From NCBI RefSeq assembly GCF_013626205.1, contig NZ_QHJE01000001.1, positions 1,736,001 through 1,800,000 on the forward strand: a DNA stretch of 64,000 nt, written 5' to 3'. Shown piece after piece: positions 6,026-48,712 of this stretch. A model generated the notes under the pieces. The model worked only from the letters and a program-made list of their open reading frames with translations. It had not been told where the DNA came from and did not search any database. Within the stretch, counting starts at the first letter, position 1, and every line of letters starts with the position of its first letter. The DNA comes from Hyphomicrobium methylovorum (GTDB taxonomy: Bacteria > Pseudomonadota > Alphaproteobacteria > Rhizobiales > Hyphomicrobiaceae). A program made the translations under genes and the position numbers.

Positions 6026-6252
6026 TGCGTCTCCAAGGATGTCAACACCGTTCGGGCCGCGCAAGGGGACACGTCGAAACACGTCGGCGAACCAAGGTTA
6101 TAGCACTCGATTCGGTCTTTGCAGACCGGAACGCCGAGAGTCCCCAGAAGGTGTCCGGATGTGTGGCTTTGAACCCTGCGTCGGAACGCCCCGTAAACGG
6201 CAAGCCATGAAATTCGTTGAGGCATTTCACCGGCGAGCTATAAGACCGCAAC

Positions 6253-7248: not shown

Positions 7249-7991
7249 TGGCGAGGGATCTTCCATCCGCGGATCTTGTGGCCGCGGTGGAAAATGCGCG
7301 GCGTGGATTCCGTCACGTCGATACGTGGATCTTCGATCTCGATAACACGCTGTATCCTGCGTCGTGCAACTTGTTCGCCGAAGTCGACCGGCGAATGAGC
7401 GAGTACATCGCGCGGACAATCGGCGTGCCGAAGGAGCACGCGCGTCATCTGCAGAAGGCTTACTATCGCCAGTTCGGGACGACGTTGTCCGGCTTAATGA
7501 AGGTACACAAGCTGCCGCCGGGGCCGTTTCTGGACTATGTGCATGATATCGATCTGTCGGTTTTGCCGGAGCTGCCTGAACTGCGCGCGGCGATCGCCAA
7601 GCTACCCGGACGGCGGCTGATCTTTACGAACGGTTCGCGGCGTCATGCGGAGAACGTGGCGCAGCGTGTCGGCTTGCTCGATCTATTCGAAGACATTTGC
7701 GATATCACGGCGCTCGGTTACGTGCCGAAGCCGCAGCGCGACGCGTTCGACAGCATGATCAAGCAGCACGGAGTTGCCGCGGAGCGCTCAGCGATGTTTG
7801 AAGACATGCCGCAAAATCTCGTGGCGGCGTCGGACCTCGGCATGACGACGGTTCTCGTACATTCCGATTACATCGACCACCCTGCGCAGCTCAAAATTCG
7901 CGACTGGCGGGCGCTGCCCGCGCACATTCACTATCTGACGCGGGATCTGACCGGGTTTCTGGAAGCAGAAATTGTTTCCGTTCCGGCTTAG
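7248..7991 (+). CDS. HAD-family pyrimidine 5'-nucleotidase
   Basis: This 247-residue haloacid dehalogenase-type phosphatase resembles yeast Sdt1 and YjjG-type pyrimidine 5'-nucleotidases. Motif I is FDLDNTLY at about 29-36, motif II is FTNGS, motif III includes the lysine in VPKPQ, and motif IV is FEDMPQN. The Sdt1 family dephosphorylates UMP, CMP or damaged nucleotides. The actual substrate is not deducible here. The ATG overlaps the argB stop codon, and this pairing with argB is common in Hyphomicrobiales. Confidence 0.88.
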   Translation: MARDLPSADLVAAVENARRGFRHVDTWIFDLDNTLYPASCNLFAEVDRRMSEYIARTIGVPKEHARHLQKAYYRQFGTTLSGLMKVHKLPPGPFLDYVHDIDLSVLPELPELRAAIAKLPGRRLIFTNGSRRHAENVAQRVGLLDLFEDICDITALGYVPKPQRDAFDSMIKQHGVAAERSAMFEDMPQNLVAASDLGMTTVLVHSDYIDHPAQLKIRDWRALPAHIHYLTRDLTGFLEAEIVSVPA

Positions 7992-8000
7992 GCGCGCCGC

Positions 8001-8759
8001 TTACCCGCGACCGATGTATGGCATCGCGGTGGCCATGACCGTCATGAACTGGACGTTGGCATCGAGCGGCAAGTTCGCCATGTAAAGCACCGCGTCGGCG
8101 ACGTGGGCGACGTCCATTCGCGGTTCGGCGAGAATGCTGCCGTTGGCCTGCAACACGCCGGTCGCCATTTTTTCCGTGAAGTCGGTCGCGGCATTGCCGA
8201 TGTCAATCTGGGAGCAGGCGATGTTGTGTGCCCGCCCATCCAGCGAGAGCGATTTCGTCAATCCGGTTATCGCGTGCTTCGTCGAAGTGTACGGCGCTGA
8301 GAATGGCCGTGGCACCTGTGCGGAAATCGAGCCGTTGTTGATGATGCGGCCGCCTTTCGGCTTCTGAGCTTTCATCACGCGGAGAGCTTCGCGGGAACAG
8401 AGAAACGCGCCCGTCAAATTGACGTTCACAACGCGCTGCCATTCGTCGAGCGAGAGTTCGTCAAGCGGCACGCCGCGCGCGAACTTTCCGGCGTTGTTGA
8501 AGAGGAGATCAAGCCGCCCGAATGCGTCGATGGTGCTTGCGAATGCGGATTTGACGGCAGCTTCGTCGGCGACGTCTGCCGGTGTGACCAGAAAGCGGCC
8601 GCCGTTTGCGGATGCCGCCGCAGCGGTTTCGTCCAGTGTTTCTTTTCGGCGGCCAAGCAGGGTGACGTTGTAGCCGTTGGCCTGCAACTTGAGAGCGGCA
8701 GCACGTCCAATCCCGGAACCTGCACCTGTGACGAGCGCGACGCGCGATGCTTCCGGCAT
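8001..8759 (-). CDS. Short-chain dehydrogenase/reductase (classical SDR)
   Basis: The 252-residue NAD(P)-dependent oxidoreductase has TGAGSGIG at about 11-18, NNAG at about 89-92, the catalytic Ser in NNGSISAQ and the YxxxK pair in PYTSTK. This is the complete classical SDR set. The NRxx-type segment LLGRRKE after beta-2 suggests NADP(H) preference. Substrate is unknown. It converges with the nucleotidase gene, with nine bases between their stops. Confidence 0.88.
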
Positions 8760-8876
8760 CGGTCAATCCTTTCGTTGGGCTGAGAAATTCTGAATAACGC
8801 GGACACATGCCTTACGCCAGTTTCTGCCGTCGTGGCGGCATGATATTTTGCGCTAGATGGTGCCAGTGGGGGCGAC

Positions 8877-9677
8877 ATGACCGGGTCGAGCGAAGCCAGA
8901 TTTTGTACGTCTTGCGGCACGGCGTTAGCCGGGCGGTTCTGCGCGAGTTGCGGGACGGCGGCTGGGACGGTTTCCGCGCCCGCGCCTCGCGACGGTTGGT
9001 CTGGTTTGACGGGCGAGCTTTTGAGCCAGGAACGGCGGCTTGGCATCCTCGGCACGGTGCTGTCGTTTCTGCATCGTCCGGTGGACACCATCATTCGGCT
9101 TACGGACAATCCTGCTTATCGCGGGCATTGGAAGTTTCTGACCGCAATGGTCGGCACGCAGCTGACCCTCGTGCATGTTTTGCTGCCGCATCTCTACGCG
9201 AGACTTTTCAATCTTCCCGATACGGCGAATGCGGGCGCGGTCGTCACGAATGAGATCGTTCAGTACGTCGGGATGGTGATCCTGACGCCGATCCAGTTTT
9301 ATCTTTGCCGAGCTTTGGGCAGCGTTCGGCGGGCGCCAATGGAATATGTGAAGCTCTGCGTGTTGAGCGTCAGTTTCTGCGCGCTGTTATCGACGCTTGT
9401 TGCACTCCTATTCACAGGCATTGCGATGGCGGTTTTCAAATTTGGAATTGCGCTCGATCTCGCGAACGTGTGGCAAGGGTTAGCGATACTCGTGTCCCTG
9501 GCGATTTTGGCGTTTGTCGCGGCGAGCCACCGGCGCTTCTGGGGCATGTCTTGGCCCATCGCGGTTGGCGTGACGCTGGCGGCTGCGGCACTGTCTTGGT
9601 TGGTCGTTTATCCTGGTCTTACGCACATCGTAGAGCAGGGGAATGTCGCGGGCGTTTTAGGTTCGCTTTTAGGCTGA
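8877..9677 (+). CDS. Zinc-ribbon, multi-pass membrane protein
   Basis: The 266-residue protein begins with two closely spaced CxxC pairs (FCTSCG and FCASCG, residues 9-25), a zinc-ribbon signature. A short linker leads to a membrane domain with about five hydrophobic segments between residues 80 and 265. The layout resembles Yip1/DUF3667-type membrane proteins with an N-terminal zinc ribbon, but I cannot assign a family firmly and the function is unknown. A GGGGGCG stretch precedes the ATG. It stands alone between two reverse-strand genes. Confidence 0.75.
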   Translation: MTGSSEARFCTSCGTALAGRFCASCGTAAGTVSAPAPRDGWSGLTGELLSQERRLGILGTVLSFLHRPVDTIIRLTDNPAYRGHWKFLTAMVGTQLTLVHVLLPHLYARLFNLPDTANAGAVVTNEIVQYVGMVILTPIQFYLCRALGSVRRAPMEYVKLCVLSVSFCALLSTLVALLFTGIAMAVFKFGIALDLANVWQGLAILVSLAILAFVAASHRRFWGMSWPIAVGVTLAAAALSWLVVYPGLTHIVEQGNVAGVLGSLLG

Positions 9678-9725
9678 AGGCCTGTTTCGCGAGTTTCTGG
9701 AGATGTCGCGCTTCGCACGCTTTTG

Positions 9726-10661
9726 TTAGCGGGTCGGGACCGGAACCTCGCCCCGATAGTCGTAGAAGCCGCGTTGCGTCTTGCGGCCCAGCCAACCTGC
9801 TTCAACGTATTTTACCAGCAGCGGACAGGGGCGATATTTCGAATCCGATAGGCCTTCGTAAAGGACTTGCATCACGCTCAAACAGGTATCGAGACCGATG
9901 AAGTCCGCGAGTTCCAGCGGTCCCATCGGGTGGTGCGCGCCGAGCTTCATGGCTTTGTCGATCGCTTCGACCGTGCCCACGCCTTCGTACAGCGTGTAAA
10001 CGGCTTCGTTGATCATCGGCAGCAGGATGCGATTGACGATGAAGGCCGGGAAGTCTTCAGAAACGGCGGTCGTTTTGCCGAGGCTTTCGACGAATGTTCT
10101 TGCGGTCGAGAACGTTTCGTCTTCCGTGGCGATGCCGCGGATCAGTTCCACCAGTTCCATCAGCGGCACCGGATTCATGAAGTGCATGCCGATGAAGTCT
10201 TCCGGCCGATCCGTTGTGGCGGCCAGACGCGTGATGGAAATCGACGACGTGTTGGATGCAAGCATCGCCGTCGGCTTCAGATGCGGACAGAGCGCGGCGA
10301 AAATCTTGTGTTTGAGCGCCTCGTCCTCGGTCGCGGCTTCGATTACGAGATCGCAGTCGCCGAAGGCCTCGAGATTTGGAGCGTAGACGATCCGTCCAAG
10401 GGCTTGGCTGCGGTCTTCTTCGCTGATCGTGCCTTTGGCGATCTGGCGTGCGAGATTTTTGTCGACAAGGTCGATGCCGTGGTCGAACGCTTCTCGCTTG
10501 AGGTCGTTCAGGGCGACCGAGTATCCCGCGAGGGCCGCTACGTGGGCGATGCCGCTGCCCATCTGGCCGGCGCCGATAACGCCGACCTTACTAATTGTGC
10601 GTGCGGGCCGAATGGCGCCTTTGCTCTTGTCGATAGGCTTCTGAGCTTGCGGCATGACCAT
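9726..10661 (-). CDS. 3-hydroxybutyryl-CoA dehydrogenase
   Basis: The enzyme interconverts acetoacetyl-CoA and 3-hydroxybutyryl-CoA with NAD(P). The N-terminal Rossmann motif VGVIGAGQMGSGIAH lies at about residues 25-40. The catalytic region holds NTSSISIT and HFMNPVPLM with the active histidine, and the C-terminal helical domain contains HPMGPLELADFIGLDT. At about 311 residues it is slightly longer than the typical 285 because of an N-terminal lead. ATG at 10661 is chosen. ATG at 10655 and GTG at 10670 are alternatives. It lies downstream of etfA with a 23-base gap, as in many alphaproteobacteria. Confidence 0.94.
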   Translation of the reverse strand: MVMPQAQKPIDKSKGAIRPARTISKVGVIGAGQMGSGIAHVAALAGYSVALNDLKREAFDHGIDLVDKNLARQIAKGTISEEDRSQALGRIVYAPNLEAFGDCDLVIEAATEDEALKHKIFAALCPHLKPTAMLASNTSSISITRLAATTDRPEDFIGMHFMNPVPLMELVELIRGIATEDETFSTARTFVESLGKTTAVSEDFPAFIVNRILLPMINEAVYTLYEGVGTVEAIDKAMKLGAHHPMGPLELADFIGLDTCLSVMQVLYEGLSDSKYRPCPLLVKYVEAGWLGRKTQRGFYDYRGEVPVPTR

Positions 10662-32274: not shown

Positions 32275-33495
32275 TTAGCCTTTGCCGCCGCTATGCGGTT
32301 GAATTGCTGACGAGGGCGCGTTCGCCGGGTTGGGTTTCTCTTGCACGTTCACCGGGTCGCCGTCGAGCAAACCGTCGGGCGCGCCGTCAACGATCCGGTC
32401 TTCGGGGGCGAGGCCTGAGGCGATCTCGAGCGTGCTTCCGAGATCTCTGCCGATGACGATGGGCTTCAAGCGGATCAGGCGATCTGTGCCGACCGTCGCG
32501 ACGCGCAAACCTTCCTTGTCGAAGATCAAGGCACTTGCGGGAATGACGACGACGTCGCGCCGATTGCCGATGGTCAAGCGCACGTTGCCGTAAGCGCCGG
32601 GCATCAGCTCCTCGGCAGCGTTGTCGACCACGAGCTGCATGCGTGTCGTTCCCGAGGCTCTATCAACGGCGCCTGCGGACACTTCGACCTTGGCCTCATA
32701 TGTTTTTTCCGGATGCTCCGGGACGGTCAATACGGCCGTCGTTCCGGGTGTGACCATCGGCACATAGTTCTGCGGAACATTGACGTAGAGCCGGAGCTTG
32801 TGCGTGTCGGACACGACGAACATTTCCGTGCCGGTGGAGCTGCCCGTGTTGATGAGGTTGCCGACGTCGGTGTTGCGCACCGTCACGATGCCATCGAACG
32901 GGGCGACGATGCGTTTGTATTCGCTGAGGGCCTTCAATCGATCGACGTTGGCTTCTGCCGATTTCACCAGTGCGTTTTTCGCATCGAGATCGGCGGATTT
33001 TTCGTCAGCGGCTTGCCGCGAGACGTAGCTGTTTGGAAGCAAAGCCTGATAGCGCTTGTTGGTGACGTTCGCGAGCGCGGCTGCGGCCTTTGCGTTGTTC
33101 AACTCTGACTGCGCCTGGAAGAGCTGCTGGTCCAGATCTGGCGCGTCGATCTCGGCAAGCACGTCTCCGGCTTTGACGCGGCTCCCGATATCCACCTTCC
33201 GGCTGGCGACGTATCCGCTGACGCGCGCAAACAGCGCCGCTTGGGAATACGCATCAAGACGTCCGGGCAGGTCGAGGTGTCCGACGCTCGGGCGGACGAC
33301 GGGAAGAGAGACCGATACCGTCGGGACAGCGCGCTCCGCCGCTTTGGTTTTCAATTGCGCGACGGATTGCTGACGGCTTTCAATACCCGTCATTGCGATG
33401 AACGCCGCGACGCCGATGAACAGAATCGTCGCGACTGGCAATGTCCAGCGTGAGCGTGTCCGCGGTTCCTGTTCTGCAGGTACCTCAGGCGGCAT
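32275..33495 (-). CDS. RND efflux periplasmic adaptor (membrane fusion protein)
   Basis: The adaptor bridges an RND pump to an outer membrane channel. About 406 residues: an N-terminal membrane segment (about 14-34), a barrel-sandwich hybrid split by an alpha-hairpin (RVKAGDVLAEIDAPDLDQQL and KRIVAPFDGIVTVRNTDVGNLI), and a beta-barrel and membrane-proximal part (VPEHPEKTYEAKV, VVIPASALIF). ATG at 33495 is favoured by GGGAG six bases upstream. ATG at 33516 is the alternative. It overlaps the end of the RND gene. No outer membrane factor gene is adjacent. Confidence 0.93.
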   Translation of the reverse strand: MPPEVPAEQEPRTRSRWTLPVATILFIGVAAFIAMTGIESRQQSVAQLKTKAAERAVPTVSVSLPVVRPSVGHLDLPGRLDAYSQAALFARVSGYVASRKVDIGSRVKAGDVLAEIDAPDLDQQLFQAQSELNNAKAAAALANVTNKRYQALLPNSYVSRQAADEKSADLDAKNALVKSAEANVDRLKALSEYKRIVAPFDGIVTVRNTDVGNLINTGSSTGTEMFVVSDTHKLRLYVNVPQNYVPMVTPGTTAVLTVPEHPEKTYEAKVEVSAGAVDRASGTTRMQLVVDNAAEELMPGAYGNVRLTIGNRRDVVVIPASALIFDKEGLRVATVGTDRLIRLKPIVIGRDLGSTLEIASGLAPEDRIVDGAPDGLLDGDPVNVQEKPNPANAPSSAIQPHSGGKG

Positions 33496-36400
33496 GGAAA
33501 TCTCCCGGTACAGCATCGTTACGAGCGGCGGCTGGTGCCTTCGCGCGATGCATCAGGCTGAAAATAACAGGCACAATGAAGAGCGTTGCAGCGGTTGCGA
33601 AGATTAGGCCGCCGATGACTGCGCGACCGAGCGGAGCGTTCTGCTCTCCACCTTCGCCAAGGCCAAGCGCCATCGGTGTCATGCCGATGATCATGGCGAG
33701 CGCCGTCATTAGAACGGGGCGGATGCGGACGTATCCTGCTTCAAGAGCTGCGGTGATCGGTTGACCGTGTTCGTTCAACCGTTCGCGCGCAAAGCTGACG
33801 ACGAGCACGCTGTTGGCCGTCGCGACGCCCATACACATGATCGCGCCAGTGAGCGCCGGAACGGACAGCGTCGTTCCGGTTACGAACAGCAGCCAGATGA
33901 TACCGGCGAGCGCCGCAGGAAGCGCCATGATGATGACCAGAGGGTCCGTCCACGATTGGAAGTTTACGACAATCAGAAGGTATATAAGCACGATTGCGCC
34001 GAGGAGACCGTAGCCCATTCCGGAATAGGCGCTATTCATCGTGCTGACCTGGCCGAGCAGAACAGCGGTCGCGCCCTTCGGCAAGTCGGGTTTTGCCTCA
34101 TCGACGATCTTTTGGATGTCGGCCGCTACGGAGCCAAGGTCGCGGCCTTCGAATGTCGTCAGGATCTGCACCATCGGCTGGATGTCATAGTGAGAAATCG
34201 ACGCGTTGGTCGCGGCGCGCTCAAAGCCAGCGACGCCGCCGAGAAGCTGAGGTGCTGGCGACGTCGAGCCGTTGACCGGTAAGTTCTGCAAGGCATTGAG
34301 CGTATCGAGCCGGTATTCGGGTGTCTGGACGACGATCGGGTAAGAGACACCGTTCTTCGGGTTGAGCCAGAAGGCAGGCGACACTTGTCCGGTGCCGGAG
34401 AGACTTGTGCCGATGCTTTCGGTCACGTCCCGCTCGGTCACGCCGACGTATTGCGCGCGTGAGCGATCGACGTTCACTTTTATCACCGGCGCGGCGCGTG
34501 ATTGCTGGATGCGGGTGTCGGCCACGCCCGGCACGAGGCGAATCTTGCGCAAGAGCTGTTGAGCGTAGTCGTAGTTGGCTGTGAGATTGTTGCCGCGAAT
34601 TTGCAGATCGATTGGGGTCGGAGCGCCGAAGTTCAGAATCTGGCTGGTGATGTCGGCGGGCAAGAACGAGAACGCCGTTCCGGGAAACCGCTTCGGCAAT
34701 TCGTCCCGCAACTGCTTGACGTAATCTTGCGTCGGTTGGTGACCCGGATTCAGTGCGATCTGGATGTCGCCGTCCTGCGGCCCGATCGTGCCGGTGTTGT
34801 TGTACGACATATTGATGCCGCTGTTCGGAATGCCGATGTTGTCGACGACCGTGTGCAGTTCGTCCGGCGGAATGATCTCGCGGATGGCTTTTTCGACTTG
34901 GGCGAAGTGGCGGGCCGTTTCCTCAACGCGTGTGCCGATTTCAGCTCGTACGTGCATCAGGATTTGGCCGGAATCGACTTGCGGGAAGAAGTTTCGGCCC
35001 AGGTGCGGCAGCAGCAGATATGACGCGCCGATGAAAGATAGCGAAACCGCGAGAAATACTGCGCGGTGAGTGAGGGCACGTTCCAGAAGTGAACGATAGC
35101 CCGATCGCATCGCCTCAAAGTTATGCTCGAAGCGGCGCTGAAATAGAACGAACGGATTGCGTGTCGCTTTCCCGTGGGCGCTTGGATCGTGCGGCTTCAG
35201 CAGGAATTTCGCCATCGTCGGCACGAGTGTACGCGACAGGATGAAGGACGCGACCATTGCGAACATGACGGCCAATGCCATCGGCACAAAGAGAAAGCGC
35301 GCGACGCCTTCCAGGAAGAACATTGGAACGAAGACGATACAGATGCAGAGCATCGAAACGAACGCGGGCGTTGCGATCTGATCGGCGCCGTCGAGAATTG
35401 CGGTCTCGACGTCTTTCCCCTGATCCAAGTGATAGTTGATGTTCTCAATCGTGACGGTTGCTTCGTCGACGAGGATGCCGACTGCGAGCGCGAGGCCGCC
35501 AAGTGTCATGATGTTCAACGTCTCGCCCATAGCCGAAAGCGCGGCGATGGACGCGAGGACCGAGAGCGGTATCGAGACGGCGATGATGAGCGTGGACCGG
35601 ACGCTGCCGAGAAACAGGAGGATCATCACGCTTGTCAGCGCGGCCGCGAGGACGCCTTCGTGTACGACATTCGAGACGGCGTTCGAGACGAACCGGGATT
35701 GGTCGCCGAGAATATTGATCTTGAGCGCGTCCGGTAGCCCGGGTTTGATTTCCTCGATTTTTTTCTTGATGCCCGAAATAATATCGAGCGTGGAAATTGC
35801 GCCGCCTTTCAGAACGGGCTGAAGAACCGAGCGTGTTCCATCGACGTGGACGATATTGGTTTGCGGCGGAAAGCCGTCTCGCACATGGGCGACGTCGCGG
35901 ATGTAGACCATGCCGCCGTCTACGGCCTTGATGGGCAGATCGCCCAGATGGCTCAAGTCTGACGGTGCGCTGTTGAGCTGGATCGTATATTCGGTCGCGC
36001 CGATTTTTTGCGTTCCGGCGGGATTGATCAGGTTCTGATCGCCCAAGGCTTCGGAGACGTCTCGCGCGGTCAGCCCGCGAGCATGGAGCGCTGCGGTATC
36101 GAGATCGATCTGAACTTGTCGCGTCCGTCCACCGTATGGGTATGGCAGCGCGGCGCCTGGAACCGTGACAAGCCGCGTCCGGATCATGTTGAGGCCGAGG
36201 TCGGACAGATTTTGTTCGGTCAATCCTTCGCCGCCGAGCGCGAGCTGCATGACGGGCACGGTCGAGGCGTTGTAGTTGAGGATGAGCGGCGGGGTCGTGC
36301 CCGGCGGCATTTGCCGGATGAGCGTTTGCGCGATCGCGGTCACCTGCGCATTCGCCGTGCGGATATCGGCCGTTGGCTGGAAGAAGATCTTCACGATGCC

Positions 36401-36670
36401 GACGCCGCCATACGACACGGATTCGATGTGTTCGATGTCGTTGACGGTTGTTGTCAGCGACCGTTCGTAGGGCGTGATCATACGACCTGCGAACTCATCT
36501 GCGGGGAGGCCGCTGTACTTCCAGATCGTGCTGATGATCGGGATGCGGATCTCAGGGAAGATGTCGACGGGTGTTCGGACTATCGCAAGGCCGCCGGCGA
36601 TCAGGATCAGCAGAGCCAGCACGATAAACGTGTAAGGCAACCGCAGTGCGATTCTGACGAGTGCAGCCAT
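33485..36670 (-). CDS. RND-family efflux transporter permease
   Basis: The 1061-residue inner membrane pump has the usual twelve membrane segments in two repeats with two large periplasmic loops. It begins IALRLPYTFIVLALLILIAGG and has the family's TPVDIFPEI. The proton-relay segment of TM4 reads GILVDEATVTIENI, so the second of the two usual aspartates is Glu. It likely exports hydrophobic compounds with its adaptor. Substrates cannot be predicted. It is the first gene of a run with the adaptor and an SDR. Confidence 0.95.
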   Translation of the reverse strand: MAALVRIALRLPYTFIVLALLILIAGGLAIVRTPVDIFPEIRIPIISTIWKYSGLPADEFAGRMITPYERSLTTTVNDIEHIESVSYGGVGIVKIFFQPTADIRTANAQVTAIAQTLIRQMPPGTTPPLILNYNASTVPVMQLALGGEGLTEQNLSDLGLNMIRTRLVTVPGAALPYPYGGRTRQVQIDLDTAALHARGLTARDVSEALGDQNLINPAGTQKIGATEYTIQLNSAPSDLSHLGDLPIKAVDGGMVYIRDVAHVRDGFPPQTNIVHVDGTRSVLQPVLKGGAISTLDIISGIKKKIEEIKPGLPDALKINILGDQSRFVSNAVSNVVHEGVLAAALTSVMILLFLGSVRSTLIIAVSIPLSVLASIAALSAMGETLNIMTLGGLALAVGILVDEATVTIENINYHLDQGKDVETAILDGADQIATPAFVSMLCICIVFVPMFFLEGVARFLFVPMALAVMFAMVASFILSRTLVPTMAKFLLKPHDPSAHGKATRNPFVLFQRRFEHNFEAMRSGYRSLLERALTHRAVFLAVSLSFIGASYLLLPHLGRNFFPQVDSGQILMHVRAEIGTRVEETARHFAQVEKAIREIIPPDELHTVVDNIGIPNSGINMSYNNTGTIGPQDGDIQIALNPGHQPTQDYVKQLRDELPKRFPGTAFSFLPADITSQILNFGAPTPIDLQIRGNNLTANYDYAQQLLRKIRLVPGVADTRIQQSRAAPVIKVNVDRSRAQYVGVTERDVTESIGTSLSGTGQVSPAFWLNPKNGVSYPIVVQTPEYRLDTLNALQNLPVNGSTSPAPQLLGGVAGFERAATNASISHYDIQPMVQILTTFEGRDLGSVAADIQKIVDEAKPDLPKGATAVLLGQVSTMNSAYSGMGYGLLGAIVLIYLLIVVNFQSWTDPLVIIMALPAALAGIIWLLFVTGTTLSVPALTGAIMCMGVATANSVLVVSFARERLNEHGQPITAALEAGYVRIRPVLMTALAMIIGMTPMALGLGEGGEQNAPLGRAVIGGLIFATAATLFIVPVIFSLMHRAKAPAAARNDAVPGDFHAA

Positions 36671-36965
36671 TAAACAGAAGTCTCCACACCGCGGTCAGGG
36701 AGAATGGGTTGCGGTGCCCCCATCTAGAACGGCGGAACCTCACTATTCCGTTGCTCTCCGTTGCCGCGCGGGTTGCGGCGAAACGGCTCAAGGCAGCGCT
36801 GGCGTTCCGTATGATCGGCATCCGGCGCCAGCTCGGCATGACCCGCACTTACTTCGGAATTAAGCATTGCCGTTTCCACGGCAACGCTATCGCACAATGA
36901 GCGCGCTTTATAGGGAAAGCATTGTCACTCGCCACCAGCGGGAAAACGTCCCTGCTTGCAGGCGG

Positions 36966-39257
36966 TTAGCCCAGACTCGCCTCATAGACGATATAGGCCG
37001 TGAGCGCCGCCATCGCGGGTACCCCTACTATGTGCAAAACACCCAAGCTGCGCCGCAGCCAGCCGATCGGTTCTATGAGGCGGTTCGATCGTGCGATGGT
37101 GATGACGATGATGAAGCTCAGGACCAGGTAACTGAACAGGAATAGTCTGTCGGATAGAGTCTCGGTGTTCGCGTCCAGCTTCGGTAACGCGAGATAGAGG
37201 GCAACAGCGGACAGCAACGCTGTGACCTGGATTGTGACAATCGCTTCAAAATGATCTTTCGAAATGAAGATCGACAGATAAGCGATGATGACGATGAAGC
37301 CGAGCGGTACGACGACGCGCAGGAAATAGTCGGTCGTTTCGCGCTTCATGAGCCATACAAAGCTCGCTTTGTAAAACGGTACGACGCTCGGTTCTAATGT
37401 CTGCGCGTCGACCGTGCGGATGAAGTCATCGTCGTAGCCGACATAGAAATCCGTCGGCTCCCAGCCATCGACGGAGACGACGCGGTCGCGCAGGTGTTGC
37501 GGCGGCGGTTGAACGATGAACGATCCCTTGCCGTGCTTTGGCTGAATGTCGATCGAGAAGCGCTGCGTGTCGAATGGGTATTCTGCGAGCTGCGGATCGA
37601 ACAGAAATTTTCCAGTCACCTGATAGATCTTCATGTGATCAGGGAAAGCGTCGCTCTTGCCTCCATCGTGAATGGTGCGGACGGTGATCTGTCGATCGTT
37701 GGAGCCGGGTTCGAGGTAGGCGTTTGAAAATTCGATCTGATCGATCGAAGCGCCGTTGCTGTCGTTCATCGAGAGATAGAAGTCGGCCAGGAATGTCTTC
37801 TCGTTGTCGTCAATGTGCTCGGCGCGAATGAGGTCGATATCGGCATAAAGGGTATCGATCTTGCGCATCGTGTTGTTGCGGAGGTGAAGAAACTGCACCG
37901 GCGCGAGTTGAGCGCGTGCCAAGCCGCGCGGGATCATCACGATGAGCGGCGTGCGCGATGCGGCGCGCGAGGCAGGCTGAAACGACCAATTGCTGTAACG
38001 GCCTTGGAATGTGCCGCGTCCGGCCGCGTACGTGGATTGCAGTTCGCGCACGATCATTGCGCGCAAATCTGGAATGCTTGTCGTCAGGTCTGCGCTGCGG
38101 GTGGCTTCGGCGATCAGGCGCACCATGTCCGCGTAGCGCGTGCCCGCTTCCAGCGCGCGCATGTTGTCGGCATCAGTGGCTTGCAGTGGGATATCAGGGT
38201 CTCTCGGCTTGCAGGATCCGTCTTGCCAGCCTGGGGCCGCGTCGTTCTTCTGGCCTTCGAATATCCAAGCTTTCGGTTTGGTCGAATTGGCGATGATCTT
38301 ACGAAGTCGGCCGTTGTAGACGTCGGGCAGGCCATCCCACGCGAGTTGATAAATGTCGTTCGGATAGGCATCTGCACCATCCGAGACGAGATTATCGATG
38401 CGTCCGTTTACGAGGATCGGCGGCGTAAAGCCCGCGTTTTTGAACTGTTTGAGAACGTCCTTGGTGCGGTTGTTGCCGATGGTAAGAAAGAGCAGTCCGA
38501 TGTCCTTGGTCTTTAGCCATTCGATCGTCGCTGCGACCTCTGCTGGATCGAGCTTATCGTCCGTCAGCTTCAGGAAATTCTCGCTGACGACGGCGTCGGG
38601 GCCGACGAATTTCTTCAATGCGTCGCCGAGATTGGTGCCGACAATCGAGTCTTTCAGGCCAACGATCCCCAATCTCTGGAAGTGCATCTCCTTCACCAGC
38701 TCCGCAATCACCGGCATGCGCTCTTCGTCTTCGGATGCGCGTGTCGTGAATACGTTCGGATAGTCGGCAATCAATCCCGCCACGGAGATGTGGGATAGGA
38801 AGGGGATGTTGCTCTCTTTGAGTGCCTTGCCGACGGCGTCGAACCCGGCTTTCGCGCGGGTGGAATTTGCCATGCCGATCATGGCGACTGTCTGCATGTC
38901 GGTGACGGAGTTCGAGAGGTCGGCGACGAGCTTGGCGTTGTCGCGACGATCGTCGAGGAACATGAGGCGCACGCGGCGTCCGGCAATGCCGCCTTCGCGA
39001 TTGATGCGCCGCTGCTCCCGGCGCGCGAGGCGCGTGATCGCTGCTGCTTGTCCGCTGTCGTAACAGTCGTCATTTCGCGAGGTGAAGAAGATCGGGATGC
39101 TGAGCGGAGGGCGCTGTGCCGCTTCGGCCTCGTCTGCGGCTTCAACAGACCGCTGTGCGCCCGACCCAATCGCGAGCGTTGCCACGACACAGAAAAGCGC
39201 CGCGAGGCGCTTCAGCATCGGCATCTGGCCGACGCGCTTGCTCAAAGCAAATCCCAC
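36966..39257 (-). CDS. Periplasmic binding protein fused to a pentameric ligand-gated ion channel
   Basis: The 763-residue protein joins two modules. After a signal peptide (about 14-40), residues 45-400 form a type I LivJ-like binding domain (RRINREGGIAGRRVRL, DDRRDNAKLVADL). From about 440 it is a Cys-loop-type channel: a beta-rich extracellular domain with the Pro-loop YPFDTQ near 560, then M1 (about 645-666, with the conserved Pro in VVVPLGF), M2 (670-692), the M2-M3 link ALPK, M3 (705-724) and M4 (739-760). ALPK and YPFDTQ match GLIC-type bacterial channels. I infer a ligand-gated cation or anion channel in the inner membrane, gated by an amino acid-like ligand. Start GTG at 39257 is uncertain; ATG at 39224 is possible. 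It stands alone. Confidence 0.88.
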   Translation of the reverse strand: MGFALSKRVGQMPMLKRLAALFCVVATLAIGSGAQRSVEAADEAEAAQRPPLSIPIFFTSRNDDCYDSGQAAAITRLARREQRRINREGGIAGRRVRLMFLDDRRDNAKLVADLSNSVTDMQTVAMIGMANSTRAKAGFDAVGKALKESNIPFLSHISVAGLIADYPNVFTTRASEDEERMPVIAELVKEMHFQRLGIVGLKDSIVGTNLGDALKKFVGPDAVVSENFLKLTDDKLDPAEVAATIEWLKTKDIGLLFLTIGNNRTKDVLKQFKNAGFTPPILVNGRIDNLVSDGADAYPNDIYQLAWDGLPDVYNGRLRKIIANSTKPKAWIFEGQKNDAAPGWQDGSCKPRDPDIPLQATDADNMRALEAGTRYADMVRLIAEATRSADLTTSIPDLRAMIVRELQSTYAAGRGTFQGRYSNWSFQPASRAASRTPLIVMIPRGLARAQLAPVQFLHLRNNTMRKIDTLYADIDLIRAEHIDDNEKTFLADFYLSMNDSNGASIDQIEFSNAYLEPGSNDRQITVRTIHDGGKSDAFPDHMKIYQVTGKFLFDPQLAEYPFDTQRFSIDIQPKHGKGSFIVQPPPQHLRDRVVSVDGWEPTDFYVGYDDDFIRTVDAQTLEPSVVPFYKASFVWLMKRETTDYFLRVVVPLGFIVIIAYLSIFISKDHFEAIVTIQVTALLSAVALYLALPKLDANTETLSDRLFLFSYLVLSFIIVITIARSNRLIEPIGWLRRSLGVLHIVGVPAMAALTAYIVYEASLG

Positions 39258-41707: not shown

Positions 41708-42988
41708 TCAATTCGCCATGTTCTGCGCATTGCGAGCGTTTTGCGCTTTCGCTTCCGAGCGTTCGGTTGGCGTCACACAAACACCGTCACCATCCCACGC
41801 ATCACGCCAGACGTAACCCGGGCGGCATCCACCTGACGGGGTCGCATTGTTCGGTCCGTTTTCATTCTGCCGCCACGCGATCTTTCGTTCCCCGCGCGTC
41901 ACACAGATGACATCTGATTTTCCGGCGTTCCTGGGAACAAATCCCGGTTTGCATCTGGAGCGCGCATGAGACTGGTCTCCGTCGCCGTCACCGCCTTTGC
42001 TGCGCAGCGCCTGCAATGCGTTCTGCGCCAGCGCGAGCGTTCGTTCATTCCTCGTGACGCATGTCACGTCGCCATCCCAAGATTCGCGCCAGACAAAGCC
42101 GGGGCGGCATCCGCCGGATTCTGTCGTATGTTGAGCGGCTTCCGCGTTCTGTTTGCTCGTCAGCGCGCGCTCCGTTCGCGTCACGCAAATGAAGTCATTG
42201 TTTTGCGGGTCCCGCCAAACAAAACTGCCTTTGCAATTGGATTTATTCCCATCGCCGCCACCATCGGCATCCGTTTGTTTGGAAGGTTGAGGTGGGGGTT
42301 CGGCGACCGGAGGCGGTGGTGGTTCAGCGCCCGCGATGCCGTTGCTCCGGCCGGCGCTCATGGCATTCTGCTGTTTCGCGGCCGAACGCTCCGCTGGCGT
42401 CACGCAAGTGCCATCGCCGTCCCAAGCGTCGCGCCATACGAAGCCTGATTTACATCCGCCTGACGGCGTGCTCCGGCCTGCGGAGATAGCATTTTGCTGC
42501 TTGGCGGCTGAGCGTTCCTCAGGCGTCACGCAGATGCCGTCGCCGTCCTTCGCGTCGCGCCAAACGAAGCCGCTTTTGCAGAGGTAAACAGCATTGGCCG
42601 GCCGAGGTTTTGCGGGCGGGGGAGCCGGTTGAACGGGAACGGCGACGCCCGCGTATTGGCTGCGCATCGCATCCTTTTTGTTCTGCTCCCAGGCTGTCGC
42701 GCGCTCTGCCGGGGTGACGCAAACGCCGTCGCCGTTCCAGGCATCTCGCCAGACAAACCCCGATTTACAGCCGCCCGACGGTGTCGTGTGGCTTTTGGCG
42801 CGGGCGTTTTGTGTTTTGGCGGCGGCTCTCTCTTCAGGCGTGACGCAGACGCCATCACCGTTCTTGGCGTCGCGGTATACGAAGCCGCTCAAGCATCCGA
42901 TTTTCGGGGGTGATGCTGCTTGAACTTCCCCGACGAGCGAGGTGATGAGCAGAGCCGGCGCTGCGGCGAGGAACAAGGCTCGGAGCAT
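41708..42988 (-). CDS. Exported protein with eight paired-cysteine repeats
   Basis: The 426-residue protein has a signal peptide (ALFLAAAPALLITSLVGEVQA) and then eight copies of a module of about 30 residues. Each module has a leading Cys, GFVWRDA, an Asp/Gly-rich turn, a second Cys in CVT, and ER near the end followed by QNA. Modules come in four pairs: the first of each pair ends in T-P/E-SGG directly before the second, and variable, often proline-rich linkers separate the pairs. Similar CVTP-type repeats occur in other rhizobial exported proteins. Function is unknown; each module probably holds one disulfide. Confidence 0.8.
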   Translation of the reverse strand: MLRALFLAAAPALLITSLVGEVQAASPPKIGCLSGFVYRDAKNGDGVCVTPEERAAAKTQNARAKSHTTPSGGCKSGFVWRDAWNGDGVCVTPAERATAWEQNKKDAMRSQYAGVAVPVQPAPPPAKPRPANAVYLCKSGFVWRDAKDGDGICVTPEERSAAKQQNAISAGRSTPSGGCKSGFVWRDAWDGDGTCVTPAERSAAKQQNAMSAGRSNGIAGAEPPPPPVAEPPPQPSKQTDADGGGDGNKSNCKGSFVWRDPQNNDFICVTRTERALTSKQNAEAAQHTTESGGCRPGFVWRESWDGDVTCVTRNERTLALAQNALQALRSKGGDGDGDQSHARSRCKPGFVPRNAGKSDVICVTRGERKIAWRQNENGPNNATPSGGCRPGYVWRDAWDGDGVCVTPTERSEAKAQNARNAQNMAN

Positions 42989-43222: not shown

Positions 43223-46200
43223 ATGAAGCAAGCGTCGCATCCGAGTGTTTTTTTAGCTTGGAGGCGTTTGTTCAGTTTGCGTTGTGGCAAGATCGGACGA
43301 CGATCTATTACCGTCCCCATTGTTGCTTTTGCGTCTATCTTATTCTCGTTCAGCGCGCTCGCCGCCGATGCGTGCGTCGAAGAGCAGGAACCAAACGAAA
43401 CCCCGGAAACTGCGCAGGCTGTCAGCGGTAGCTTTTGCGTTCAGGGCACGATCTCCGACTCCGACCAGTCTATTTTCGCCTGGACCGTCGATGCAGAGGC
43501 CGCGAAACGCCCTTGGACGGTGGACCTTTCCGGGCCTCACGGCCAGCAGACCAAGGTTCAGATTCATCGCCTCGAAGAGCCGGGCGACGCAGATAATCCA
43601 GCGGTTGTTGGGCCGGAGCTGAGCAGTCTGGCGACACCGGCTGGTGCCGATACGGTTCAACGTGCAAATTTTTTCATCACACCGGGCGTTTGGCTTGTGG
43701 GCGTTTCGACGAGCGCCGGTGACGGTGGTGCGTTCCAACTCTCGATCCGCAGTTCAGATGACGGGTCGGCGGAGCAGGCCGCCGCGTCCGGTGCGACTGC
43801 CGATCAGGCTACTCAGGTTGCGGGCCAGTTCGCGCTTAAAGGCGTGGTCGGCAGCGAAAGCTGGGCATCGTGGCAACTCTCTCCGATCGAGGCGCGCAAA
43901 CGTTGGGTTTTGACCGCGACGGCGCCCATCGGCGCGAACGTTGCGCTCGAACTGCAAAGCCAGGATGGTAAGCCGATCCTGACGTCAACGCAGATCGCCG
44001 AGGGACGTCTCGAATTGGCCGATATCGGGCTTCCGGCCGGAACCTACCGTATCCACCTGACGAGCACTGACTCCAAATCCTATCCCTATTCGCTGGAATC
44101 TGCCTCGCAAGGTCCGCGCAGTCCGGGTCGGGAAGAGGAGCCGAACGACAGCGTGCTTTCTGCCCGGCCGTTGCAGCCCGGTCAGACGATGACCGGCCGC
44201 ATCGGGCACACGGGTGATGTTGATACGTACGTGCTGCCGACGACTGCCGTGGGCCAGTTGCTCAGCGTGCGGCTCGGTGGGCAGAGCCGTGCGATAACCC
44301 GGCTGTGCATTGGAGGCGCCGACGGCGCAGTTCTTCAATGTCGCGAAGGCGCGATGCCGAGCCTCGACGACATCGTCATCACCGATACGCGTCGCTTCGT
44401 CATCATCTCCGGCGGTCCGAGCCCCGACGCCACATACGATCTCACCGCGCATGTCACTGGCCAGCAATCGGCCGACGCCGAGAGCGAGCCAAACGACACG
44501 AGCGATTTGGCGAATACGCTCGCCGTTCCGCTCATGCGCGGCCGCTTCGTCAAAGGCGATACCGACGTTTTCCATTTCAAGGCATCGGATTCGAAACCCG
44601 TCACCCTGAAGTTGACGGGCGAGGCGGCGACGTCGCTGGAAGTCACCGACATGCAGGCTCAATCGTCAGCGCGGGTTGAGCGCGCGACGGGTGCGGACGG
44701 GGCCGCTGTTGCGGGCCCCTTGCAGCTTTCAAATTTGACGCTCGCGCCGGGCGACTATCTCGTCGTCGTAAAAGGCACGGACGGCGCATACACGCTCGAA
44801 ACGACCATCTCTGCGGACGCAGCAGCAGAGTCTGCCACGCCGACGGAGCGCGAACCGAACGACGCGGTTGAACAGGCGCAGGCTCTCCAGGAAGGAGAGC
44901 GCATCGCTGGCGTGATTTCGCCGGACGGAGATATCGACCAATATCGCGTGTCGATCGTGACGCCGGAGGACATCACGATCCATTTCGAGCAGGATCCAGT
45001 CTGTCCCGTCGTGTTCGTGTTGAATTGGGATAGCTGGTCGGGCTCGACGCCGAAGGCTGTAATCTCGGACAAGAGTTTCGCCTACGCCGCTCGTCTACGG
45101 CCGAACGACTACACGATTTCTTTGCAGCACGATACGCAGTGCGAGAAAGCGACCAGCTACACGATTGGATTCGACGCGACCAACCTCCCGGCATTCGGGG
45201 ATGTCGAACCCAATGACTCTCTTGCCGAAGCATCCGCGATGCCGCCAGACCTCAAAGTTGAAGGAACGGTCGGGCAGTTCACCGACGCCGATTGGTTCAA
45301 GCTGCCGACGGTCGAGAAGGACACAGGCGTTTCGATCGCTGTCACCGGAGAGATCGAAGTCGCATTGACCGACGGCAAGCCGACGTCGTCCGCGCAGCTC
45401 TCCCAGCCGACGATCATCGCGGGCGGTGACAAAGGAGAATCCGTCAAGGGCACAGTGCCCGCGGGTGCTACAGCGGCGATCCGCGTGATGGGTAAGGGTG
45501 CCTACACGCTTGCCGTTACGATGGATGGGCGCGAGCCGGTATCGACCGCAGACGCACCGGTATATCCTTCTTCCGCAGCGAAGAATACAAGCGAACCGTC
45601 AACGGCAGGAAAATCTGCGCCAGCAGGAAACGCGGCGCCGGGCGCGCTCAAGGCGGAGTTGAAGTTCGCGGCGCAGGAAATCGCGGCCTACTGGCATCGT
45701 GGACAGAGGGTGCCCGGAACATTGACGGTGACAAACAGTGAAAGTGCGCCGGTCGACGTGACGTTCGCGACGGCGGGGTTGCGGCCCGGCTGGCGTCTCG
45801 ATCTCCCGCCGACGGCCACGATCGCTGCCAATGCCTCGCTTGAGCTGCCGCTCGCTCTCGAAGTGGCTTCGGACCCCTATGCCGTGCGTCCGACGACGAT
45901 CACGGTATCGATGCGCAAGGGTTCGAACAATCTTGCGAGCGCCAGCGCAAACATCGCGGCGTCGATATCGGCGCAACCGATCGGCGATCACCTGTCTTTC
46001 GAATTACCGGATGAACTCCTCGGTGGCTTCAACGTCGCGTGGACCGCGCTCGGCGGAACGCTTGTGTCTCCGCCCGAAGGCGCCAACGATGAAAATGGTC
46101 TTGCGAACATCAATGATGGTTTGAGCTCGAATGCTGGGTACATCTTCGATGCGGCGTTGCTGCCCCAGACAGCAACGGTTCGCTTCGGCGGCGACAGGAC

Positions 46201-48712
46201 GTGGCCCGTAAGAGGGATCACGATCAATCCGCAGACGCCTGGCGTCTGGCCGCCGGAGTATATGGCGAATTTCGAACTGCTCGTTTCTGCCGATGGTACG
46301 ACCTTCGAACGGGTCTTGACGGGCGAAGTCAGCCAACAGCCAAGCGAGCAATCGTTCGTGCTGCCGAAGGCTATTGAAGCAAAGGCCGCGCAGCTTCGTA
46401 TTCTCTCCAACCACGATGGCAACCTCGGCCGCGTCGCGGTTAGTGAATGGAAGGTGATTGTCGATCCGCAGGTCGGTATCGGTGCGGAACTCGACATCGC
46501 GGACTCGCTTCGAGGCGGGCATGTCGTCTGGTCCGATCCGCTCATCTCGGCGGAAACGCCGGTCGTTAAGGGCGTGCTTGAAGAAGGTGGCGCGGGGCCG
46601 GTGGTTTCAGTGCCTTCTGGAGTTGCGCCGCAAGTTACGATCGCTTTTCACGAAGATCGCGCCGCACAGATCAGGGCGCTGGAATGGATCGACTCTGAGC
46701 CGGCCAACGGCGCGGTGACGTTTCCCGCGGTGATGATCGATGCCTCGATCGAGACGCCGCTTGGTCCCTGGACAAAGGTCGGCGAATGGAAGCTCGGCGA
46801 AGGCAAGTCTTCGACAAAGACGTTCGAACAACCGGTCTGGGCGCGCTTCCTGCGTTTCACATCTAGCAAGAAGGCAGGCGAAGGCGGAGAAACTTTCCAG
46901 TTCCCGACGAAGCTGCGCGTCTTGGAACGAGCAAGCGACGCAAACTACCGATCGATACTCGGAGAGTGGGGACAGTACTCGGCCGCGAGCTTCTATGAAA
47001 AGACGCTGCCTCCGCCGCCGGTGGCGAAGCCCGAAAGCGATGACAACGATACACGCGAGAAGGCGGAGCCGTTGCCGATGGATCAACTCGTCTCGGGGCG
47101 GGTCGAAATCGGCCGCGACGAGGACTGGTTCAAGATCGAACAGCCCGACGGGATGGATCGGCTCACGATCACACTCGGCGGCGAGCCGACCATCGGAGCC
47201 GATATTTCGCTCTTCGATGATGCGGAGAAGCCGGTCGTGCTCGTCGATACCGGCGGCACACCGCGTCAGGCGGATTTCGAAGCACGGGTCGTGCCGGGCA
47301 AGACGTACTATCTGAAGGTCGTACAACCCCCGCACTCGGTGATGATTGCCTACGACACGTCGGGCAGTCTGCTTGCCTTCATCCCAATCATCTACAACGC
47401 CCTTGAGGTGTTTGCGGCAGGTGTTCATCCGGGACAGGAGTCGGTGAACTTCATGTCGTTCGATCGTCCTGCGATGTTGGCGGATTTCAGCGATCAGCCC
47501 GGAATCCTGAAGCAGGCCCTCGCCAAGGATGCGCGTGAAAGCTCAACCAGCGGCTTAGAGGGAACCGCGATTACGGCCTTGCGAAATCTCTCGACACGGA
47601 GAGGCACGCGCGCGCTGTTGCTTGTGACTGACGCTGCGAGTTCGACGACAGAAGCAACCACCGATCTCTGGAAAATGATCGAACAGACGCGGCCCCGCAT
47701 CTTCGCGGCGCATGCCGGTTCGTTCGACGATCCGCTGCGAGAAAAACAGACGATGCAAGATCTCAGTCTTGCGAGCGGCGGCCATTACGCGTCGTCGCGG
47801 AGCCAACCTGAGCTTGATGTTTCTTTCGATCGCGTCGCCGCGTGGCTGCGCCGACCGGCAGGCTATACGCTGCTCGCAAAGGCTGGGAAGGCCGCGCCTC
47901 CGGAACCCGGCCGCCTGGTCGTCTCTTCTTCCGCAACGCCGACGAACAGTGAAGCAGCACCGTCCGAAACGCGGCAAGGCGGCTTGGAGATCGTTCTCGA
48001 TGCTTCAGGAAGTATGCTGAAGCATATGGACGGGCGTCGCCGGATCGAGATCGCGCGCGCATCTCTTGCCAAGCTGGTGAAGGACCATCTCAAGCCGGAC
48101 GATCACGTCGCGCTGCGCGTCTTCGGGCACGATAAGCCCGGCTCGTGCGAAACTACGCTCGTGCAGCCGCTTGCGCCTCTTGATGCGGAAGCGATGACGG
48201 CAACGGTGAACGGCATCGTTCCGCAAAATCTGGCCAGGACTCCGATTGCCGCCTCGCTGAGTCAAGTCGAAAGCGATCTCAAAGATGCGACGGGAGCGAA
48301 GACGGTCATTCTGCTGACGGACGGCGAAGAAACGTGCGGTGGCGACCCTCGCGCGGTCATTTCCACCCTCGCCGCGCACGACATTCAGGTTCGCGTCAAC
48401 ATCGTGGGATTCTCCGTCGACGATCCGATGCTCAAGGGCGAGTTCCGCGAATGGGCTCGAATTGGCCGCGGGCGATATTTCGATGCCGCGAAGGCGCAAG
48501 ACCTGGACAGCGCGATAGCGGCCGCCGCGGAGGTGCCGTTCTCCGCTTATGACAACACCGGCAATGTCGTTGGTCAGGGTACCGTCAATGGACCCGAAAT
48601 TACCGTGCCTGCCGGGCACTATCGCGTCGAGATCGGGTCGACGCCGCCGCAGATATTCACTGATGTGATGATCAAGGAAAGAGACGTAACCAGGCTCAGC
48701 GCCTCGAAGTAG
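43223..48712 (+). CDS. Giant exported protein with PPC-like repeats, discoidin-like and two VWA domains
   Basis: The 1829-residue protein has a signal peptide ending near ALAADAC. Five clear pre-peptidase C-terminal-like repeats carry the (D/E)-E-P-N-(D/E) signature (near 55, 305, 420, 545, 660). A degenerate one lies near 190, and a related sixth one near 1275 reads SDDNDT. Two galactose-binding/discoidin-like regions follow (about 923-1081 and 1090-1250). Two VWA domains have intact metal-site starts: D1378 in DTSGS and D1593 in DASGS. This is a secreted or surface adhesion-type architecture with no peptidase seen. GGAG precedes the ATG closely. The next giant gene begins 62 bases after the stop, suggesting one operon. 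Confidence 0.85.
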   Translation: MKQASHPSVFLAWRRLFSLRCGKIGRRSITVPIVAFASILFSFSALAADACVEEQEPNETPETAQAVSGSFCVQGTISDSDQSIFAWTVDAEAAKRPWTVDLSGPHGQQTKVQIHRLEEPGDADNPAVVGPELSSLATPAGADTVQRANFFITPGVWLVGVSTSAGDGGAFQLSIRSSDDGSAEQAAASGATADQATQVAGQFALKGVVGSESWASWQLSPIEARKRWVLTATAPIGANVALELQSQDGKPILTSTQIAEGRLELADIGLPAGTYRIHLTSTDSKSYPYSLESASQGPRSPGREEEPNDSVLSARPLQPGQTMTGRIGHTGDVDTYVLPTTAVGQLLSVRLGGQSRAITRLCIGGADGAVLQCREGAMPSLDDIVITDTRRFVIISGGPSPDATYDLTAHVTGQQSADAESEPNDTSDLANTLAVPLMRGRFVKGDTDVFHFKASDSKPVTLKLTGEAATSLEVTDMQAQSSARVERATGADGAAVAGPLQLSNLTLAPGDYLVVVKGTDGAYTLETTISADAAAESATPTEREPNDAVEQAQALQEGERIAGVISPDGDIDQYRVSIVTPEDITIHFEQDPVCPVVFVLNWDSWSGSTPKAVISDKSFAYAARLRPNDYTISLQHDTQCEKATSYTIGFDATNLPAFGDVEPNDSLAEASAMPPDLKVEGTVGQFTDADWFKLPTVEKDTGVSIAVTGEIEVALTDGKPTSSAQLSQPTIIAGGDKGESVKGTVPAGATAAIRVMGKGAYTLAVTMDGREPVSTADAPVYPSSAAKNTSEPSTAGKSAPAGNAAPGALKAELKFAAQEIAAYWHRGQRVPGTLTVTNSESAPVDVTFATAGLRPGWRLDLPPTATIAANASLELPLALEVASDPYAVRPTTITVSMRKGSNNLASASANIAASISAQPIGDHLSFELPDELLGGFNVAWTALGGTLVSPPEGANDENGLANINDGLSSNAGYIFDAALLPQTATVRFGGDRTWPVRGITINPQTPGVWPPEYMANFELLVSADGTTFERVLTGEVSQQPSEQSFVLPKAIEAKAAQLRILSNHDGNLGRVAVSEWKVIVDPQVGIGAELDIADSLRGGHVVWSDPLISAETPVVKGVLEEGGAGPVVSVPSGVAPQVTIAFHEDRAAQIRALEWIDSEPANGAVTFPAVMIDASIETPLGPWTKVGEWKLGEGKSSTKTFEQPVWARFLRFTSSKKAGEGGETFQFPTKLRVLERASDANYRSILGEWGQYSAASFYEKTLPPPPVAKPESDDNDTREKAEPLPMDQLVSGRVEIGRDEDWFKIEQPDGMDRLTITLGGEPTIGADISLFDDAEKPVVLVDTGGTPRQADFEARVVPGKTYYLKVVQPPHSVMIAYDTSGSLLAFIPIIYNALEVFAAGVHPGQESVNFMSFDRPAMLADFSDQPGILKQALAKDARESSTSGLEGTAITALRNLSTRRGTRALLLVTDAASSTTEATTDLWKMIEQTRPRIFAAHAGSFDDPLREKQTMQDLSLASGGHYASSRSQPELDVSFDRVAAWLRRPAGYTLLAKAGKAAPPEPGRLVVSSSATPTNSEAAPSETRQGGLEIVLDASGSMLKHMDGRRRIEIARASLAKLVKDHLKPDDHVALRVFGHDKPGSCETTLVQPLAPLDAEAMTATVNGIVPQNLARTPIAASLSQVESDLKDATGAKTVILLTDGEETCGGDPRAVISTLAAHDIQVRVNIVGFSVDDPMLKGEFREWARIGRGRYFDAAKAQDLDSAIAAAAEVPFSAYDNTGNVVGQGTVNGPEITVPAGHYRVEIGSTPPQIFTDVMIKERDVTRLSASK

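Follow-up and report, generated by a model that had tools for sequence, protein, structure and literature searches.

A type I periplasmic binding domain joined to a pentameric-type channel in Hyphomicrobium methylovorum and its relatives

We analysed a stretch of 64,000 nucleotides from Hyphomicrobium methylovorum (positions 1736001-1800000 of the main contig; hereafter the window) and found that the open reading frame (ORF) at positions 36966-39257 of the minus strand is one unbroken protein, in which a type I periplasmic binding protein (PBP-I) domain is joined to a pentameric-type channel. The complete ORF starts with GTG, has no internal stop and encodes 763 residues, and its parts follow one another in the order signal peptide, binding domain of the leucine/isoleucine/valine-binding protein (LIVBP)/LivJ fold, Cys-loop-like beta domain and four membrane helices. 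The genome measures 3.45 Mb and is rated 100% complete; the closest named relatives are records of Hyphomicrobium and other Hyphomicrobiaceae. We consider it fairly probable that the protein is a periplasm-facing, homopentameric and probably cation-conducting channel and that a small ligand bound in the PBP crown controls it. A LIVBP-fold domain joined to a complete pentameric-type channel had been proposed from the DNA letters (the original prediction), and profile searches, structure models and fused relatives confirmed this observation.

Two folds in one polypeptide

The Pfam search revealed that the sensor half matches Peripla_BP_6, which recognises the two lobes of the PBP-I fold, at residues 84-283 (E 4.8e-13, 49.9 bits against a cut-off of 31.7). 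A profile search with the sensor half reached the LivJ-type proteins 4mpt, 4q6w, 3lop and 4gnr. On the basis of Pfam, profile and Foldseek matches (4gnr, 4q6b), the binding domain was assigned to residues 50-440 (37938-39110; this and the following features of the gene lie on the minus strand). The original prediction had drawn this domain at about residues 45-400; Pfam supports residues 84-283, and the remainder up to about residue 440 comes from the model and the relatives, not from Pfam. Residues 1-45 (39123-39257) are predicted to form the signal peptide region, as judged from a model helix at residues 13-31 and from inspection of the sequence.

For the channel half, no Pfam channel model was listed with the whole protein (E up to 1) or with the half alone (E up to 0.01), and NCBIfam returned solely TIGR00860 LIC (E 1e-3, 17.9 bits against a cut-off of 280.2). 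The relationship to known channels was found by phmmer, which led from the channel half to the GLIC-type chain 4yeu (E 3.5e-4), and by a profile from 17 channel halves, which matched 4yeu at E 2.1e-7. The same profile aligned with GLIC entries along positions 22-306 of its 310 (E about 3e-6 to 1e-5) and matched 6v4a, which we take to be DeCLIC, at E 5.3e-6. The proposed check by two domain profiles was borne out for Peripla_BP_6 and not for the Neur_chan models; the channel homology is supported by these searches against solved channels. The Pfam Neur_chan models are a recognition tool and not a defining trait of the superfamily.

The traits of the Pro-loop (pentameric ligand-gated channel) superfamily are present. 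In particular, a Cys-loop-type extracellular beta domain, identified from the model strands and the profile alignment to GLIC, occupies residues 454-639 (37341-37898), and this beta-sandwich domain carries the Pro-loop YPFDTQ, with its proline P561, at residues 560-565 (37563-37580). Four predicted membrane helices follow: M1, residues 642-664 (37266-37334), with the conserved proline P651; M2, the putative pore helix, residues 667-690 (37188-37259), with E671, T675, T679 and L682; M3, residues 701-724 (37086-37157); and M4, residues 732-762 (36972-37064). The ALPK link between M2 and M3 lies at residues 690-693. The Pro-loop, the M1 proline, the ALPK link and the expected order of the membrane segments had all been predicted, and each was recovered. 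The disulfide-forming cysteine pair around the Pro-loop is absent, as the only cysteines of the protein are C23, C65 and C349, none of them near the Pro-loop; the protein would not count as a Cys-loop receptor in the strict sense.

A first AlphaFold2 model from 19 sequences had a predicted local distance difference test score (pLDDT) of 79.6 and a predicted template modelling score (pTM) of 0.73, and a second, confident chain model from a 63-row alignment reached a pLDDT of 87.9 and a pTM of 0.86. The second model showed a PBP-like alternation of strands and helices up to about residue 440, followed by the beta domain and the four helices at the residues given above. Upon comparison with known structures by Foldseek, LivJ 4gnr was found on top with the second model (E 6e-17; template modelling (TM) score by target 0.70 with both models), and the sensor half also matched other binding proteins and domains of metabotropic glutamate (3lmk, mGluR5), GABA-B (4mqe) and taste receptors. 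The channel half matched GLIC 6f12 with the first model (TM by target 0.72) and the GABA-A receptor 7qnb with the second (TM 0.61, rank 49 among the 50 matches listed). Both are models of a single chain, for which we infer a pentameric assembly and a ligand pocket.

Occurrence, conservation and proposed mechanism

Both halves lay in one frame at 62 of the 71 loci obtained in one scan of named genomes (loci are cited by L and genomes by G numbers), including the records L036 (Hyphomicrobium facile), L042 (Filomicrobium insigne) and L046 (Rhodomicrobium), which are not marked as metagenome-assembled genomes (MAGs). Five of the nine remaining loci begin at a contig end (L075, L083, L099, L100 and L101), and the other four hold the halves in two frames (L062, L067, L086 and L096). 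Because unbroken fused ORFs occur at 62 loci, a chance join or a frameshift, which had been named as a possible refutation, is excluded, and the probability that a sequencing or assembly artefact fused two genes is negligible. The suggested survey of related genomes for the same fusion was thereby answered in the affirmative.

Matches to the channel-half profile were found in 64 of the 103 genomes in the window's family, not all in long open frames (a few matches lay in frames of 277-625 residues), and in 20 of 22 genomes of its genus. Of the two genus genomes without a match, with completeness values of 71% and 84%, one (G004) contains an N-terminal fragment. Across the class, 385 genomes yielded two matches, one in G339 and one in the window's own genome. 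Outside the class, a distant relative was found in Adhaeribacter terrigena (Bacteroidota, L095), where two PBP-channel genes stand in tandem at 5818-7956 and 8021-10156 on the plus strand, 64 bases apart; they might form a hetero-oligomer. We also observed that the record titles of L037, L053 and L093 (MAGs of Devosia equisanguinis and Akkermansia muciniphila) fit their relatives poorly, and these labels may be wrong. The window's own genome contains a second pentameric-type channel of 371 residues that lacks a PBP domain (L103:1261-2376, plus strand; G000:C1, about 2916.9-2917.9 kb). A search of this genome with PF02931 gave no match, and the controls were equally without a match.

At E 0.01, Peripla_BP_6 matched 62 of the 63 aligned members, whereas Neur_chan_LBD and Neur_chan_memb matched none of the 63, so that by Pfam alone these genes look like substrate-binding proteins. 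New here is a Hyphomicrobiaceae-centred clade in which Pfam does not see the channel half, two sensor cysteines are inherited together and the pore hardly varies. Its occurrence in so many genomes of the family, together with records from cultured strains, provides material on what bacterial pentameric channels sense in vivo.

Conservation was counted over 64 sequences, unless the 63-row alignment A5 is named. Invariant in all 64 were P561, D563 and Q565 of the Pro-loop, W599, R639, D643, P651, T679, L682 and A686, as well as G413, G419, W424 and F426, which lie where the PBP domain ends, beside the beta domain. In A5, which includes L095, the M2 residues I676, Q677, T679, A680, L681, L682, A686, L687 and Y688 were invariant in all 63 rows. 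The mean top-residue frequency was highest of nine segments in M1 and M2 (0.82 each), followed by M3 (0.68), the beta domain (0.61), the PBP parts (0.49-0.56) and M4 (0.42, the lowest of the four helices). One might suppose a receptor that has lost conduction and uses the channel fold to anchor itself in the membrane or as a scaffold for signalling; we know of no current measured so far, and the -2' residue varies in distant relatives. However, the top conservation of M1 and M2 would be hard to account for if the pore did not work, and we regard this explanation as improbable.

Pore residues were placed against GLIC by the 17-row profile alignment. E671, T675 and T679 presumably correspond to E-2', T2' and S6' of GLIC, and A684 to H11'; from the first three, cation conduction is predicted, and the channel is probably cation-conducting. 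At residue 671, 51 of the sequences have E, 7 have D, 5 have N and 1 has G; at residue 675, 42 have T and 22 have A; and at residue 684, 56 have A, 7 have S and 1 has T. Proton gating through H11' in the manner of GLIC was considered and rejected, as histidine is absent from this position throughout.

In the sensor, C65 (39063-39065) and C349 (38211-38213), the two cysteines past the signal region, were both present in 51 of the 64 sequences and both missing from 12; the N-terminally cut L085 had C349 alone. No other cysteine past the signal region was found in 45 of the 51 carriers of the pair, and the other six had one extra cysteine in the membrane part, at positions 658-752 in window numbering. 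The natural reading of this pattern is a disulfide, with C349 as the probable partner of C65. Concerning the ligand site, the alignment to 4gnr sets S132 opposite the ligand serine of LivJ and V159 opposite its ligand threonine. R134 (kept in 56 of 64) and S158 (59 of 64) lie on the pocket side as read from the alignment, and R134 could suit an acid ligand. Gating by an amino acid or small acid, as originally suggested, is plausible.

The identities of the sensor and channel halves were correlated over 2016 pairs (r = 0.92), and such in-step divergence is expected if the halves form one working unit, although shared descent alone also suffices. A different explanation is that the PBP domain merely modulates or scaffolds the channel, as seems to be the case in DeCLIC, and that the channel really responds to an ion, to pH or to another ligand at the interface of the beta domains. 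According to the consulted parts of two DeCLIC papers, the N-terminal domain of that channel seems to speed gating and calcium depletion activates it (PMC12664993, PMC9897478). In 99.9% of the 2016 pairs, moreover, the channel half shows the higher similarity of the two halves, as a modulatory domain would allow. The strong retention of S158 and R134 argues against such a role, and so does A684, at the position of the GLIC histidine, where no member has a histidine. We judge this explanation possible and clearly the weaker one.

Several points weigh against a solute-gated cation channel. The -2' residue is non-acidic in 6 of the 64 sequences and the 2' residue is alanine in 22. By alignment, V159 stands in place of the threonine that contacts the ligand in LivJ, which leaves an amino-acid ligand without direct support. 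The faster divergence of the PBP half would fit changing ligands as well as a merely modulatory domain, and no functional measurement for such channels was found in the literature searched.

In the mechanism that we propose for the solute-gated channel, five identical subunits would join in the inner membrane after export, through their beta domains and four-helix bundles, with M2 lining the pore. A LivJ-fold binding domain, clamped by a putative C65-C349 disulfide, would sit on the beta domain of each subunit. Binding of a small periplasmic solute, most likely an organic or amino acid, would close the two-lobed domain, and the closure may be relayed through the conserved end of the PBP domain (G413, G419, W424 and F426) to the beta domain, the Pro-loop and the M2-M3 link, whose shift would open or close the pore. 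The resulting cation flow could report the solute to the cell quickly, as a membrane-potential or ion signal.

Relatives with an MscS-like pore and the origin of the fusion

With a broader profile, four long ORFs were detected in three further families of the class (E 2e-5 to 8.5e-4), and the matches covered the beta-domain part only. These ORFs, L116:97-3327 (plus strand), L115:1-3309, L118:1-3030 and L120:1-3156 (minus strand), each contain Peripla_BP_6, a Cys-loop-type beta stretch and then MS_channel_2nd (E 4.7e-15 to 6.7e-19) as an MscS-like pore, and L115 additionally has a cNMP-binding domain; no Neur_chan model was listed for any of the four. The beta stretch on the MscS-like pore corresponds to the first two thirds, or more, of a Cys-loop-type domain. 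In a single comparison, it matched the window-family profile with a probability of 91.5% (E 8.5e-7). When used to search the class sample, it picked up MscS-type proteins in 4 of 385 genomes, as well as the L104 fusion (E 5.2e-9), and did not pick up the window's protein. The L104 fusion aligned with L116 over 473 columns (E 6e-22), and the window protein matched L116 directly at just E 0.017. Profile A6 gave no match up to E 5 among the sequences of the PDB, a plasmid search with the L104 channel half gave no match, and we found no description of proteins with a PBP, a Cys-loop-type domain and an MscS part in open-licence papers.

A second distant type of PBP-channel fusion was found in two other families of the order, at L189:529-2829 (plus strand), L190:957-3236 (minus strand) and L191:653-2980 (plus strand); Neur_chan_memb scored below the cut-off in the two of these that were scanned. 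By their sensor, these three group with the MscS type (89/96). They connect the channel fusions with the MscS type: L190 and L116 share 32% identity over 545 columns of the PBP and beta domains (E 1e-68), and the match stops at residue 562 of L190, about 75 residues ahead of its Neur_chan_memb region, which begins at 638. For the last 75 or so beta-domain residues and the membrane part of L190, nothing convincing was found in L116.

We had at first leaned towards two separate fusions because of profile scores: a free binding protein reached 49 bits with the sensor profile, in which the L104 fusion was unlisted, and a free channel scored 35.5 against 27.0 for L104 with the channel profile. Since these free proteins had been chosen for their likeness to the window protein, the comparison is biased. 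L104 had been unplaced in an earlier channel tree (approximately unbiased (AU) test, p 0.49); once L189-L191 were added, a single branch of the channel tree (95/82) set all the fused forms apart from the rest, a result that long branches weaken. In the PBP tree the window clade stands apart from the other fusions, and a grouping of all fused forms was not rejected (AU p 0.184). The simplest reading is one fusion, followed by a swap of the pore in one branch. The PBP-I and Cys-loop-type beta domains would fit a sensor that drives a gate, being found together on a second type of pore. It appears reasonably likely that they are a portable sensing cassette used on two unrelated pores, and that the window clade is a widespread, unannotated, solute-gated branch. 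If so, Cys-loop-type domains would be able to gate channels that differ in fold and oligomeric state.

Neighbouring genes and known systems

In the window and at 8 of the 71 loci, all close kin, the next genes after the channel gene in this direction include an RND pump of two genes; the adjacent pump gene in the window, AcrB-like by eye, lies at 33485-36670 on the minus strand and is probably no functional partner. If the channel were an accessory of this efflux pump that senses a pump substrate, the order channel, AcrB-like gene, HlyD-like gene in these loci, with pump genes 70-79% identical, would be explained. Other RND matches are distant and differ in place or strand: a pair of 24-28% identity lies upstream of the channel on the same strand in L043 and L065 and on the opposite strand in L090, and a fragment lies downstream on the opposite strand in L047 and L042. 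On the other hand, at 8 of 8 close loci an oppositely oriented gene that looks LysR-like by eye lies between channel and pump, and no RND match was found in the stretch around the other 58 loci, many of which have short flanks. A search with the L036 copy of the LysR-like gene found no counterpart at window positions 36670-36966. Other subclades have different neighbours, which makes the channel look self-contained, and a link to the RND pump is unlikely, with a very low probability for an accessory role. Partner genes common to the whole family were sought and none was found: clusters 6, 7 and 16-18 occur at up to 7 loci and cluster 19 at 4.

In a group of paralogues with 29-38% identity (L084, L088, L089, L091, L092, L094 and L100), an AAA-ATPase-like ORF (by eye) lies downstream in 7 of 7; further ORFs are common to most, and an ORF of about 1000 residues lies upstream in four. 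In the window, 41708-42988 (minus strand) encodes an exported-looking protein of 426 residues with repeats of a short cysteine-containing motif (GFVWRDAWDGDGVCVTP...), and 43223-48712 (plus strand) is an ORF of 1829 residues with a signal-like start, by eye a surface protein of the von Willebrand A type. A promoter and terminator scan gave signals no commoner than in shuffled sequences.

In the literature searched, we found no paper that pairs Hyphomicrobium with a ligand-gated ion channel, no characterisation of the clade described here, and no reported function or structure for channels of the PBP-I/pentameric architecture. The architecture itself has been known since 2004, when Tasneem et al. 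reported PBP-I fusions to prokaryotic pentameric channels in Magnetospirillum magnetotacticum and Bradyrhizobium japonicum and proposed a role in chemotaxis (PMC549065, consulted in part). These fusions, likened here by their description, have the N-terminal PBP-I domain, the Cys-loop-type ligand-binding domain (LBD) and the four helices of the window protein in one chain. Neither genus name appears among the 71 loci, which hints that they lie outside the window clade, although the scan patterns could miss them; we found no function reported for them. The claim that the fusion joins two receptor lineages stands, and its novelty is weakened by these two other alphaproteobacteria. The accompanying comparison with animal receptors was slightly off, as the excerpt of the same paper describes the PBP-I domain of NMDA-type receptors as N-terminal and their pore as inserted in a PBP-II domain (PMC549065). 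The LBD motif hWxP given there is absent from the window protein, which has no tryptophan between residues 424 and 599. In the consulted part of Jaiteh et al. 2016, terminal parts were discarded and no biological role was known for any unicellular channel (PMC4795631).

The window protein shares with GLIC and ELIC the fold of the channel half, the Pro-loop, and E -2' and T 2'. GLIC and ELIC are not known to have an extra N-terminal domain, and GLIC-type proton-gated channels have a histidine at 11' of M2, where the window protein has alanine. DeCLIC is likewise a prokaryotic channel with an extra periplasmic N-terminal part; this part consists of two jelly-roll lobes (PMC9897478, in part), whereas that of the window protein is a PBP fold. 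In the section of Fan et al. 2025 that was consulted, DeCLIC is the only pentameric ligand-gated ion channel with a partly characterised N-terminal domain (PMC12664993). The sensor-half fold is shared with LivJ/LIVBP and with the N-terminal domains of class C G-protein-coupled receptors and NMDA receptors, where it is free, on seven-helix receptors or on a different pore, and not on a pentameric Cys-loop channel. Finally, L115, L116, L118 and L120 carry a related sensor and beta stretch, as do the fusions of the window type, and differ from them in their MscS-like pore part; with this related sensor module, the way in which two unrelated pores could be driven by a Cys-loop-type domain can be put to the test.

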